Assembly: GCF_014651375.1 (NCBI RefSeq)
Contig: NZ_BMWT01000003.1
Location: forward strand, 186,001 to 250,000
DNA: 64,000 nt
Source of the DNA: Tateyamaria omphalii
GTDB taxonomy: Bacteria > Pseudomonadota > Alphaproteobacteria > Rhodobacterales > Rhodobacteraceae
Direction of reading: 5' to 3'
The notes below the pieces were generated by a model that searched no databases, had not been told where the DNA came from, and was given only the letters and a program-made list of their open reading frames with translations. Of the stretch, positions 22,890 to 54,971 are shown piece by piece. Each line of letters starts with the position of its first letter. Position 1 is the stretch's first letter. Position numbers and translations under genes: made by a program.

Positions 22890-24224
22890 CTAGACGGAGT
22901 CGAGGTAGATTTCCGTCTGCTCGTCCAGCGTGAGTTCGGCCATGTAGCGGGCTTCCTGCCGCTTGGTCATGTTCATGTTGCGGATCAGCTCTGCGTCGAA
23001 GATGCGCGCGATATGCGGGCTGTCGGCAAAGGCGACCATGGCGTCTTCCCACGTGCCGGGAACCTGCTCCAGTTCCTGTGCGTAGGCGTTCCCGGTGATC
23101 GGCGCAGGCGGGTCCTGTGCGTCCTCCATACCGTTCAGAGCAGCGCCAAGGACGGCAGCAATCGAAAGATACGGGTTCACATCACCCCCGGCCACCCGAT
23201 GTTCGATCCGTCGGGCCGCTGAGGGGCCAGATGGGATGCGGATGGCTGCCGTGCGGTTTTCATAGGCCCATGCGATGCCGGTGGGTGCATGGGCATCCGG
23301 CACCAACCGGGCATAGGAATTGGCATGGGGCGCAAAGATCAGCATTGAGCCCGGCATGGCGGCAAGGCACCCCTGCACAGCATGGCGCAAGGTGTCTGTG
23401 CCCGCCTCGGTCCCGTCGTCAAAGATGTTCTTGCCATCCTTGTCCAGCACCGAGAAATGCATGTGCAACCCGTTGCCTGCATAGTCCGGATAGGGTTTCG
23501 CCATGAAGGACGCGGCAAAGCCGTGTTTGCGCGCCAGCCCCTTGACTAGCATCTTGAACAACCACGAGTCATCCGCTGCCTTCAACGCATCGGCCTGATG
23601 CATCAGGTTGATTTCGAACTGGCCGAGACCGCTTTCGGAAATGGCTGTGTCGGCGGGGATGTCCATCGCTTCGCAGGCGTCATAGAGCTCGGTAAAGAAG
23701 TCGTCGAAAGCATCGAGCGTGCGCATGGATAGGATTTCGCCGGCGACGCGCCGCTTGCCGGATCGCGGGGACGGAGGCACGCGCAGACGGCTGCCGGTGT
23801 CATCGATCAGAAAGAACTCCAACTCGACCGCAACAACCGGGGTCAGCCCTTTGGCAGCGAACCGATTTTGAACGGCAGCCAGTGCATGGCGTGGGTCGCC
23901 CATGAAGGGACGGCCATCTTCGTGAAACATCCAGATCGGCAGTAACCCCGTGGGCGTGTTCAACCATGGCATGGGGACAAAGCCGCGCTCGGTCGGGCGC
24001 AGTACGCCATCCCGGTCGCCGGTTTCCATCACAAGGGGGCTATCCTCAATATCTTCGCCCCAAATATCAAGGTTGAGCACTGACATGGGGAAGCGCGTGC
24101 CGCTGTCGGTGATCTTGTCGGCAAAGCGTACCGGCATACGCTTGCCGCGCGCCACGCCGTTCAGATCCGCGGCCGCCACGCGGATAGCACGGATTTCGGG
24201 ATTGTCGACAAGCCAATCGTGCAT
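22890..24224 (-). CDS. Glutamine-synthetase-like gamma-glutamyl-amine ligase (PuuA-type), copy 1
   Basis: A 444-residue GS-fold protein with LNGVARGKRMPVRFADK at the N-terminus, SGLGQFEINLMH, GNGLHMHFSVLD and ENRTAAIRIPSG as ATP, metal and glutamate contacts. It differs clearly from the second copy, so this is not a recent duplication. It begins four bases before the stop region of the ABC permease gene, placing ligation directly after uptake in the operon. It probably gamma-glutamylates a polyamine or monoamine brought in by the transporter. Confidence 0.9.
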   Translation of the reverse strand: MHDWLVDNPEIRAIRVAAADLNGVARGKRMPVRFADKITDSGTRFPMSVLNLDIWGEDIEDSPLVMETGDRDGVLRPTERGFVPMPWLNTPTGLLPIWMFHEDGRPFMGDPRHALAAVQNRFAAKGLTPVVAVELEFFLIDDTGSRLRVPPSPRSGKRRVAGEILSMRTLDAFDDFFTELYDACEAMDIPADTAISESGLGQFEINLMHQADALKAADDSWLFKMLVKGLARKHGFAASFMAKPYPDYAGNGLHMHFSVLDKDGKNIFDDGTEAGTDTLRHAVQGCLAAMPGSMLIFAPHANSYARLVPDAHAPTGIAWAYENRTAAIRIPSGPSAARRIEHRVAGGDVNPYLSIAAVLGAALNGMEDAQDPPAPITGNAYAQELEQVPGTWEDAMVAFADSPHIARIFDAELIRNMNMTKRQEARYMAELTLDEQTEIYLDSV

Positions 24225-44256: not shown

Positions 44257-45630
44257 TCAGCAGTTCGGCACGTTGACCGCGAGCCCACCGAGTGACGTTT
44301 CCTTGTACTTCTCGCTCATGTCTGCCCCGGTTTGCCGCATGGTTTCGATGCAGGCATCGAGCGGCACCAGATGCGTGCCATCACCGCGCAAGGCAAGACT
44401 GGCCGCGCTGACCGCCTTGATCGCGCCAAGCCCGTTGCGTTCGATACAGGGCACCTGCACCAACCCGCGCACGGGGTCGCATGTCATGCCCAGATGATGC
44501 TCAAGCGCGATCTCTGCCGCATTTTCGATCTGCTGCGGTGTGCCGCCCATGACGGCGCATAGGCCTGCGGCAGCCATGGCTGCTGCGCTGCCTACTTCCG
44601 CCTGGCAGCCCGCTTCAGCGCCCGAAATGGAGGCATTGTATTTCACAAGGCCGCCAATGGCGGCAGCCGTCAGCAGGAAGTCCTCGATATGCGCTTCGGA
44701 TGCGCCGGGAACGTGATCGAGGTAGTAGCGCACGGTGGCAGGCAGCACGCCCGCCGCACCGTTGGTGGGGGCCGTGACGACCTGTCCACCTGCTGCGTTT
44801 TCCTCGTTCACGGCCATGGCATAGACGCTCATCCAGTCATTGATGGTGTGCGGCGCTGTCAGGTTCATGCCGCGCTCTTCTATCAGCTTGTCATGGATGC
44901 CCTTGGCCCGCCGCTTGACATTCAAACCGCCGGGAAGCGTGCCGTCGGTTGTCAGGCCACGTGTGATGCAATCGTTCATCACCTGCCACAGCCGTTTTGT
45001 GCCTGACCGCAGGTGCGGATCGCCGTTGCGGGACACTTCGTTGGCGCGTTTCATGGCTGAAATGGTCTTGCCCGACCTCTCGGCCATCTCAAGCATTTCG
45101 GCAGCCGTTTTAAAGGGGTAGGGGACGGGCGCCCCTTCGTCCGTTGCCTTGCCTGCGGCCAGCTCCTCTTCGGTCATGACGAAACCGCCGCCGATAGAGT
45201 AAAAAACCTGCTGCAAGGTGACGTCGCCCTGCGCATCGGTGGCCATCAGGATCATACCATTGGCGTGGCCTGTCAGGGGTGTATCGTAGTCGAAGATTAG
45301 GTCGGTTTTCGGGTTGAAGTGCAGGGCAGGCAAGCCATCAGGATGCAGTATGTGCGTGTCTGAGAGTGTGGCCAGTGCTGTTTCGGCCTGATTGTGGTCG
45401 TAGGTTTCGGGGACAAACCCAGCCAGACCTAGGATCGTCGCCCGGTCCGTGGCATGCCCGACGCCCGTGAAGGCCAGTGAACCGTGCAGCGACGCGCGCA
45501 CTCCGGCGAACTGGAAGGGCGAGGCGCGCATCATGTCGAGGAACCGCGCGGCGGCCACCATCGGACCCATCGTGTGTGACGAGGAGGGGCCGATACCGAC
45601 CTTGAACATTTCGAAGACGGACAAGAACAT
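44257..45630 (-). CDS. sdaA: L-serine ammonia-lyase, iron-sulfur type (single chain)
   Basis: A 457-residue enzyme that converts L-serine to pyruvate and ammonia. The N-terminal half has [19 protein letters not shown], and the C-terminal half has [19 protein letters not shown] and the [19 protein letters not shown] segment; these cysteines hold the 4Fe-4S cluster. Both halves are in one polypeptide, as in E. coli SdaA. The GST gene begins upstream and its stop abuts the sdaA start. Confidence 0.96.
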
Positions 45631-53493: not shown

Positions 53494-54024
53494 TCAGGTT
53501 GCGGCGGGATTGGCAACGGTGATCAGTCCCAGCTTGCGGGCGGCGGCGATGGAAAGGGTCTTGCTGTCCAGGCCCTCTGAGGCCTGGTATCGCCCGACTG
53601 CTGCTCGGGTGCGCGCGTCCATTTCGCCGGTGATCCGACCTGTATAAAACCCGCGCGCCTCCAGCGCCCGCTGGACCGATGCAATGAAGTCGGGCGTGAT
53701 ATCCGCTTCGCAGATTATCTCATACCAGGTTTCCCGGCGTGGCTGGACAACCTGTTGGCTTGTCTCGGTCTTGTAGATCGGGGGGGATTGGATCCGTCCG
53801 TCACTGCTGACCTGCGCGGGTTGCAACTGGACTTTTCGGGTCACGGTTTCGACGACGGCGGGGCTCACCGTCTTGTCCCAACACGTGTCCGGAGCAGCTC
53901 CGGGCGGGGCGGTCGCCAGCGAGATCGGGTCGACATTCGAAGACGATGTGACTGTGCCATCGTCGGCACAGGCTGCAACAATGCAGGCGGCAGCAAGGGC
54001 CGGGAAGAAGGGTCTGAGTGTCAT
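53494..54024 (-). CDS. Lipoprotein with a C-terminal peptidoglycan-binding-like domain
   Basis: A 176-residue protein from the ATG at 54024. The signal MTLRPFFPALAAACIVAAC has lipobox candidates LAAAC and IVAAC, so it is probably lipidated. The C-terminal part (FIASVQRALEARGFYTGRITGEMDARTRAAVGRYQASEGL, cited by key words) is a PG_binding_1-like repeat that often anchors envelope proteins to peptidoglycan. The middle has two Cys and an extended TETSQQVVQPRRETWYEIICE segment. Exact role unknown. Confidence 0.85.
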   Translation of the reverse strand: MTLRPFFPALAAACIVAACADDGTVTSSSNVDPISLATAPPGAAPDTCWDKTVSPAVVETVTRKVQLQPAQVSSDGRIQSPPIYKTETSQQVVQPRRETWYEIICEADITPDFIASVQRALEARGFYTGRITGEMDARTRAAVGRYQASEGLDSKTLSIAAARKLGLITVANPAAT

Positions 54025-54094: not shown

Positions 54095-54523
54095 TCAGCC
54101 GCCCTTACGGCTTTCCCAGGTGTCGGTACGTGTCTCATTTCGCATATGCCGCCCGGTGCCTTCTGCAAGAAGCTGGTCGAGCAGGGACGAGATGTCCTCG
54201 ATCTCTTCGGCCAGCACATGGGTGACGTTATGGGCCCGCTGCATCCGGCCCGTTACCTTCAACATGCGCCCGGCCACCACGGCACGGCGGAAGCGTTCGT
54301 AGATGTGACGCCAGACGATAATGTTCACCACGCCTGTCTCATCTTCAAGCGTGAGGAAGATCACGCCCTTGGCCGTGCCAGGACGTTGTCGCAGAATCAC
54401 CAGCCCTGCCACCGCCACCCGCGCATTCACGGGCGGTGCGTCCAGTTCATTTGCGCGCAGGCATGCCGGGGGACGGGGCCATGTGGTCGTATGCCCGGAA
54501 GAGGAAGAGGAATAAGTCTGCAT
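54095..54523 (-). CDS. C-terminal OB-fold remnant of error-prone DNA polymerase DnaE2, SOS-controlled
   Basis: A 142-residue product from the ATG at 54523. Residues about 30-115 match the last domain of DnaE2/ImuC: VAGLVILRQRPGTAKGV, FLTLEDETGVVNIIVW and AEEIEDISSLL. The roughly 900 preceding residues of a polymerase (PHP, palm, fingers, HhH) are absent. The start is a short Ser/Gly-rich leader (MQTYSSSSSGHTTTW) of unknown origin. A direct-repeat LexA box lies two bases before the ATG, which suggests that the gene is either a deletion remnant of imuA-imuB-dnaE2 or a small SOS-induced OB-fold protein. Confidence 0.75.
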   Translation of the reverse strand: MQTYSSSSSGHTTTWPRPPACLRANELDAPPVNARVAVAGLVILRQRPGTAKGVIFLTLEDETGVVNIIVWRHIYERFRRAVVAGRMLKVTGRMQRAHNVTHVLAEEIEDISSLLDQLLAEGTGRHMRNETRTDTWESRKGG

Positions 54524-54525
54524 GA

Positions 54526-54558
54526 GAACAAAGATAGAACATACACTGTGTGTCGCAA
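54526..54558 (-). promoter_or_regulatory. SOS (LexA) box and predicted promoter of the DnaE2 remnant
   Basis: On the minus strand GTTC-TATCTTT-GTTC (54526-54540) matches exactly the alphaproteobacterial LexA site GTTC-N7-GTTC. A promoter is readable over it: TTGCGA (54553-54558) and TATCTT (54531-54536) with 16 bases between. Transcription would begin about at the ATG, giving a leaderless message. LexA bound here would block RNA polymerase. Confidence 0.75.

Positions 54559-54635: not shown

Positions 54636-54970
<335 letters not shown>

Positions 54971-54971
<1 letters not shown>

Follow-up and report, generated by a model that had tools for sequence, protein, structure and literature searches.

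The window that we analysed is a stretch of 64,000 nucleotides of the genome of Tateyamaria omphalii, and the locus described here is a short gene on its minus strand, together with its control elements and its two neighbors:

53494..54024, minus strand: downstream gene for a protein with a peptidoglycan-binding domain (PF01471), a syntenic anchor outside the system
54095..54523, minus strand: the short gene, stop codon included, encoding a 142-residue OB-fold protein, the detached C-terminal OB domain of DnaE2 (translation, PRK05672 match, 97 distinct loci, dN/dS)
54170..54427, minus strand: core of the OB fold, residues 33-118 (PF01336, AlphaFold2 model, OB-fold matches in the PDB)
54467..54481, minus strand: WPRPP motif of the N-terminal extension, residues 15-19, with 23 residues from its W to VAGLV
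54526..54540, minus strand: LexA-type operator (box) GTTC-N7-GTTC, GTTCTATCTTTGTTC, ending 2 nt (54525-54524) before the ATG
54531..54536, minus strand: -10-like element TATCTT, within the operator and 16 nt from TTGCGA
54553..54558, minus strand: -35-like element TTGCGA (among 92 loci aligned on the box, 87 have T at -18 and 83 have G at -16)
54648..54971, plus strand: divergent gene for a 2Fe-2S ferredoxin (PF00111), a syntenic anchor outside the system

The short ORF runs on the minus strand from an ATG at 54523 to a stop at 54095 and comprises 142 codons. A preliminary description of this DNA had read it as the last OB-fold domain of the error-prone polymerase DnaE2, and alignment bears this out. 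In a profile search its residues 21-120 match positions 942-1041 of the 1047 positions of PRK05672, the error-prone DNA polymerase profile (E 2.2e-31), and the Pfam OB family PF01336 is recovered over its cut-off on residues 36-111 (E 2.4e-12). The DnaE2-type OB domain is present in the source genome as a gene of its own, namely the window ORF.

A search of the source assembly (4.75 Mb, 100% complete) with the PRK05672 profile recovered three matches. One of these, at C4:274341-277571, falls below the cut-off and is a whole PolIII alpha, presumably DnaE1; the second is the window ORF. The third, at C1:62533-65418 on another contig than the window, is an open frame for a dnaE2 body of 990 residues, which matches PRK05672 positions 4-938 only, with 1208 bits against a cut-off of 939. 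It contains the PHP, Pol3, fingers and HhH domains (PF02811, PF07733, PF17657 and PF14579; L004 1414-4383). Its PDIDVDF motif and a third aspartate (D410, D412 and D562), which we take to be catalytic from E. coli alpha, are invariant in 20 aligned split bodies. The OB domain does not lie in the same chain as this body, whose match stops at 938, and is encoded by the separate gene; positions 1-3, 939-941 and 1042-1047 of the profile are covered by neither half. Most bodies of the genus carry FTRGNPD at the C-terminus (L004 1411-1437), and the next gene starts at 1398 on the same strand. Judged by eye, this motif perhaps reflects the ribosome-binding site of that gene, and we do not count it among the docking motifs.

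The partners of DnaE2 are likewise encoded elsewhere. The imuB gene occupies C1:514362-516014, and its perfect box is found at 514336-514350; a candidate imuA lies at about 44.5-45.2 kb of C3, with a perfect box at 45201-45215. The latter is probably imuA, being named by eye and from the adjacent box: it scores 31.8 bits with NF033429 against a cut-off of 150, which none of 14 control genomes, Caulobacter included, reaches, and it has no Pfam match. The body, the OB gene, imuB and the probable imuA occupy four separate places in the source genome and do not form a contiguous cassette. The preliminary description had stated that everything between the operator and the final domain was missing; this has to be withdrawn, as a body with an open frame, imuB and a probable imuA are found elsewhere in the genome.

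The AlphaFold2 model of the OB protein has a mean pLDDT of 76, with 72-93 in 10-residue blocks over residues 31-110, and adopts a five-stranded barrel (strands 35-44, 54-61, 64-71, 87-97 and 100-110; helices 72-77, 79-83 and 112-120). Its best Foldseek matches in the PDB are OB-fold subunits of the CST and RPA complexes and tRNA-synthetase OB domains, with E-values of about 2e-6 to 9e-5 for Stn1/Ten1 and RPA32 and TM-scores by query of 0.40-0.57 among the 50 matches listed. By sequence, an OB profile search of the PDB gave no match at 0.01, and a single-sequence search only weak ones to Stn1 (E 0.46 or worse). The predicted model of the body is poor (pLDDT 56). Among the solved chains nearest to it are PolIII alpha chains that, with 910-927 residues, are similar in extent to the body; these are presumably active E. 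coli fragments lacking the OB domain. Both the resemblance to CST and RPA subunits and these shorter alpha chains would suit an alternative in which the free OB protein has left polymerase work to become an independent SOS-induced single-stranded DNA-binding protein, with the OB-less DnaE2 working alone.

The distribution of the two halves, in contrast, argues against such independence. We searched 101 genomes with the window protein and PRK05672 and sorted the matches by hand on span and open frame; 61 of these genomes (G000-G060) make up the family set. In 33 of the 61 the short OB gene stands free and a DnaE2 without OB domain accompanies it, the body matches ending at PRK05672 938-962; no genome has the short gene only or the body only, and 28 have neither, including four (G052, G028, G040 and G041) that were assigned there by hand ahead of counting. 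One of these four, G052, is a 74%-complete MAG that was scored apart; it has both halves and raises the number of split genomes to 34. The apparent pair of G028 is an artefact: its body (C2:214651-217569) and OB piece (C2:9-275) stand at opposite ends of one contig of 217,585 bp, so that one full-length gene probably spans the cut, and the genome has two further full-length dnaE2 copies. G040 and G041 were also rejected as split, their matches being contig-edge fragments of full-length dnaE2. A split pair together with a full-length dnaE2 is found in a single genome of the set, G054 (on C1 and C4, with the full-length gene on C4). The gene neighborhood of the body differs too: within flanks of 3 kb, 2 of 34 split loci have imuA or imuB nearby, versus 41 of the 44 full-length loci, for which the flanks ranged from 1.5 to about 6 kb.

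We then took 159 family genomes with a single representative for each genus, some of them shared with the first set. This second sample gave the short gene in 65 and the OB-less body in 62 (60 with both, five with the short gene only, two with the body only and 92 with neither). Left out of these classes were OB matches within frames of 213-876 residues (G040, G041, G137, G150, G154, G178 and G214) and the body fragments of G201 and G217. The matches in G137, G150 and G154 reach 1040-1047 beside upstream DnaE2 sequence and are of the full-length type, and that in G178 spans PRK05672 215-1038. In three of the five short-only genomes (G127, G177 and G217) the contigs are broken and carry pieces of the body whose matches end at 938-942, and G120 has an N-terminal DnaE2 fragment at a contig edge. 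In G110 (100% complete, seven contigs), which has the short gene at C4:2083597-2083896, a DnaE2 body was searched for and none was found, a case that would favor the independent DNA-binding protein. The body is present and the short gene was not detected in G103, where the ferredoxin gene was also not found, and in G123, whose contig stops about 222 bp upstream of the ferredoxin gene. With the OB-less body accompanying the short gene in 33 of 33 and 60 of 65 genomes of the two samples, we regard an independent role as improbable. In a search of plasmids with the window protein, none of 794 records reached at least 80% identity; among the 25 matches listed of these, the annotated ones read 'error-prone DNA polymerase' and there is no close copy of the free OB gene.

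The split bodies break off at a consistent point. In the 32 of 34 that were measured they end in or shortly after the motif ...HPvaLLRxxLTP, with tails of 1-31 residues (59 in G039); the remaining two end in ...RLTPPQSAR (G032, with a possible frameshift near the N-terminus, its match beginning at position 88) and ...IITPEAA (G052). In cyanobacteria, the halves of DnaE are joined by an intein. A split intein that would splice the present halves together once they are made has a precedent in the intein-split cyanobacterial DnaE, as given in the available part of PMC3919608, but is contradicted by body tails as short as one residue after LTP (G024) and by OB proteins with just two residues before WPxPP (L096 and L110). 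These leave no room for intein halves of usual size, as judged by length alone, and the probability of this alternative is close to nil.

At the promoter of the short gene, the preliminary description had noted a perfect GTTC-N7-GTTC site two bases before the ATG that overlaps a readable promoter. We confirm both points: GTTCTATCTTTGTTC is found at 54540-54526 of the minus strand, a perfect operator of the alphaproteobacterial type, TATCTT lies inside it and TTGCGA stands 16 nt away. We rejected the count of boxes alone as evidence, given that the pattern is at chance level in the window (2 against 2.05 expected) and rarer in the genome than a reversed control pattern (140 against 236). The other match in the window, GTTCAAAATCGGTTC at 23859-23873 (minus strand), belongs to a class of which about as many are expected by chance. 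The window box rises above chance by its conservation: a perfect box is present upstream of 92 of 97 distinct short-gene loci (115 with duplicates) versus 5 of 4130 control windows, in a search of the 210 nt that precede the codon for residue 33, with controls drawn from the same loci in either orientation. In 69 of these 92 loci the box ends exactly 2 nt ahead of the first in-frame start codon. In the box-aligned loci (n=92) the box itself carries a TATNTT -10-like element, and 76 of the 92 pass a loose test for a -35 element versus 6-8 at four shifted positions. With the -35-like and -10-like elements so placed, transcription would start at the ATG or close to it, and the mRNA is probably leaderless.

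Similarly, a LexA-type site, defined as GAAC-N7-GAA(C/T) or GTTC-N7-GTTC at most 100 nt upstream, precedes the split body in 33 of 34 loci versus 10 of 3208 control windows. Nine of these are perfect boxes and 24 have GAAT at one end; the one body without a site, that of G052, shares its strand with imuB, at a distance of about 0.95 kb. At the body locus of the source genome a perfect box was looked for and not found, and the site there is GAAC-N7-GAAT (one mismatch), beginning 52 nt before the start. From these sites we predict that LexA binds at, and DNA damage induces, the short gene and its partners.

The surroundings of the short gene are also conserved. The ferredoxin gene is found divergently upstream, within 1.5 kb, in 93 of 97 short-gene loci, and in 79 of 97 a peptidoglycan-binding match follows shortly downstream, on the strand of the short gene itself. 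Two congeners, G009 and G017, lack the short gene and possess a full-length dnaE2 of a different DnaE2 clade that adjoins imuB (in G009 with imuA, recognized by eye, also there); upstream of their ferredoxin gene, beside the peptidoglycan-binding gene, we found neither a box nor an OB match, with E-values accepted up to 1. In G021, which carries two full-length dnaE2 genes, the ferredoxin site holds a decayed OB piece (L246 2139-2264) that matches OB residues 80-121 with 52% identity (E 4e-8) and lacks a box; none of the other loci among the 22 ferredoxin loci compared has an OB match. Thus, the free OB is absent or decayed where the one-piece enzyme stands without a split body, which also weighs against its being an independent DNA-binding protein.

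The preliminary description had further held that the open frame was kept, and the substitution pattern agrees. In the OB core of 17 congeners (80 codons), median pS is 0.469, pN 0.042 and dN/dS 0.051 (maximum 0.148), and the same DNA read in two shifted frames as controls gives 3.0 and 4.8. When the 97 loci are taken together, the median dN/dS is 0.142, with pS near saturation. The 24 codons ahead of the core are less constrained, at 0.146 within the genus and 0.340 for the full set of loci, and the split body has a dN/dS of 0.093 (880 codons, 14 congeners of equal length compared by position without alignment). Two origins had been proposed for the short ORF. The first, an in-frame deletion that fused the promoter of the operon to the tail of dnaE2 and left a drifting remnant, draws on the box standing directly before a DnaE2 tail. 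However, the low dN/dS and the presence of the gene at 97 distinct loci over many genera refute it as a remnant. Moreover, the body exists elsewhere, the ORF lies at a conserved ferredoxin site rather than at a former imuA-imuB-dnaE2 locus, with that synteny kept, and the true remnant in G021 looks quite different; we give this origin virtually no credence. The second, a small SOS-controlled OB protein derived from DnaE2, fits the homology to the DnaE2 OB domain, the LexA-type box and the kept frame. As the ORF does align to DnaE2 and relatives carry both ORF and box, the underlying observation stands. At the level of genomic sequence, the reciprocal halves, their pairing, the boxes, the purifying selection and the absence or decay of the OB beside a full-length enzyme without a split body give good support to a dnaE2 that was split and not lost.

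In a FastTree phylogeny of 78 DnaE2 bodies (949 columns), all 34 split bodies, including the long branch of G052, fall on one side of a branch with support 100, and the fission probably happened once, in an ancestor of the roseobacter group. In many marine members of this group DnaE2 seems to consist of two separate proteins. The OB tree (87 columns) is mostly unresolved: with three changes of the split label, no single origin for the split OBs emerges from it, and it groups the 34 split OBs with the 18 native full-length forms of the family and one outside row, G100 (support 90).

Two further traits set the split lineage apart. Of the 97 short proteins, 95 carry a WPxPP motif ahead of the OB fold, or 96 when L may replace the W, versus 0 of 30 parsed linkers of full-length DnaE2 (of 44, 14 could not be parsed), and in the 95 measurable short proteins the spacing from W to V(A/C)GLV is a constant 23 residues. 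ImuB was found in all 34 split genomes, as two contig pieces in G059. Its segment just after the IMS domain is 56-61 residues long in the split lineage, with a core of RSGDxIDQEARATRSRA (n=31), versus 5-33 residues in 39 ImuBs of genomes with full-length DnaE2, and the motif QEAxAT[RK] occurs in 30 of 31 of the former (G052 has the related HEAKATR) versus 0 of 39 of the latter. The split-lineage ImuBs (L183 4363-6018 from the source genome, L264-L293 and L182) leave out G020, G059 and G060, and five of the 44 full-length loci gave no ImuB. The two ImuBs of G054 differ in this respect, L288 having the insertion motif and L190 lacking it. The ImuB of the split lineage carries a conserved insertion of about 45 residues, and this insertion and the WPxPP of the OB protein are candidate docking elements. 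Since the split genomes group together, traits common to them are not independent events, and the insertion and WPxPP are consistent with co-adaptation without proving it.

We consider it quite likely that the window ORF is the OB half of a split DnaE2 whose body is encoded elsewhere, that both are induced, and that the OB acts in trans in the mutasome. The body comprises the PHP, polymerase, fingers and HhH domains and stops immediately short of the OB domain, which the window gene would supply as a separate small protein. With a LexA-type operator of its own on each half, on imuB and on the probable imuA, DNA damage should induce all of them together. The body would then polymerize and bypass lesions within the ImuA-ImuB-DnaE2 mutasome, and the free OB might dock through WPxPP on the C-terminal end of the body or on the ImuB insertion. 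The OB domain of DnaE polymerases is taken to bind single-stranded template, and the docked OB could hold that template in trans, like the fused OB of ordinary DnaE2. This assembly in trans, with docking via WPxPP and the ImuB insertion, we infer from sequence features. We advance only tentatively, and with more doubt than confidence, the stronger proposal of a clade-wide two-subunit error-prone polymerase, in which the separately induced OB docks via WPxPP on the ImuB insertion and synthesis either needs both subunits or has its run length set by OB supply. The free OB could instead be a regulator that limits or redirects the polymerase, as a dominant negative or a handoff factor; its own promoter would make its dosage independent of the body, and WPxPP and the ImuB insertion are lineage-specific. 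Yet nothing observed demands regulation, the strong constraint on the OB fits an ordinary function, and we hold a regulator to be very unlikely.

If the split DnaE2 with an OB acting in trans is correct, nature has dissected a translesion polymerase, the OB being parted from the body in a broad lineage with both behind LexA-type sites. The split may explain DnaE2 records without an OB domain; since what looks like a 'truncated DnaE2' may be one of two parts of an enzyme that works, it calls for caution in annotation. The role of the OB and the recruitment of DnaE2 by ImuB would become testable in vivo via the 142-residue gene. In the literature searched, with subscription journals mostly uncovered, we found no report of a two-piece DnaE2. 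The accessible portion of one study describes the modules of DnaE2 and does not mention a split there (PMC12926913), and, in their accessible portions, others describe imuABC organization (PMC3901139), an imuA-imuB-dnaE2 cassette on the 126-kb plasmid of D. shibae (PMC9426580) and a LexA-site search in that organism (PMC6473078).

Several known systems invite comparison. The single-OB subunits Stn1/Ten1 and RPA32 are OB-fold proteins that work beside a polymerase; the likeness of the window OB to them is one of fold only, and no membership is claimed. Several DnaE2 proteins have been reported without an OB domain (PMC3919608, accessible text), and these may include the body type of the split lineage, although no standalone OB partner is mentioned in that text. 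The cyanobacterial split-intein DnaE (same text) is alike in having dnaE in two pieces, whereas here there is no room for an intein and the break falls at the border of the OB domain. A standalone ImuB-C with an inactive PolY, termed 'split ImuB' in the available parts of PMC12926913 and PMC6511836, likewise presents a mutasome domain as its own protein, but of another subunit and not of the polymerase itself. Closest to the system described here is the ImuA-ImuB-DnaE2 (ImuABC) mutasome with its one-piece DnaE2. The two share a homologous body and OB, ImuB, which is present in 34 of 34 split genomes, and LexA-type boxes; the present system differs in its two-gene DnaE2, four scattered loci, the WPxPP extension on the OB and an insertion of about 45 residues in ImuB.
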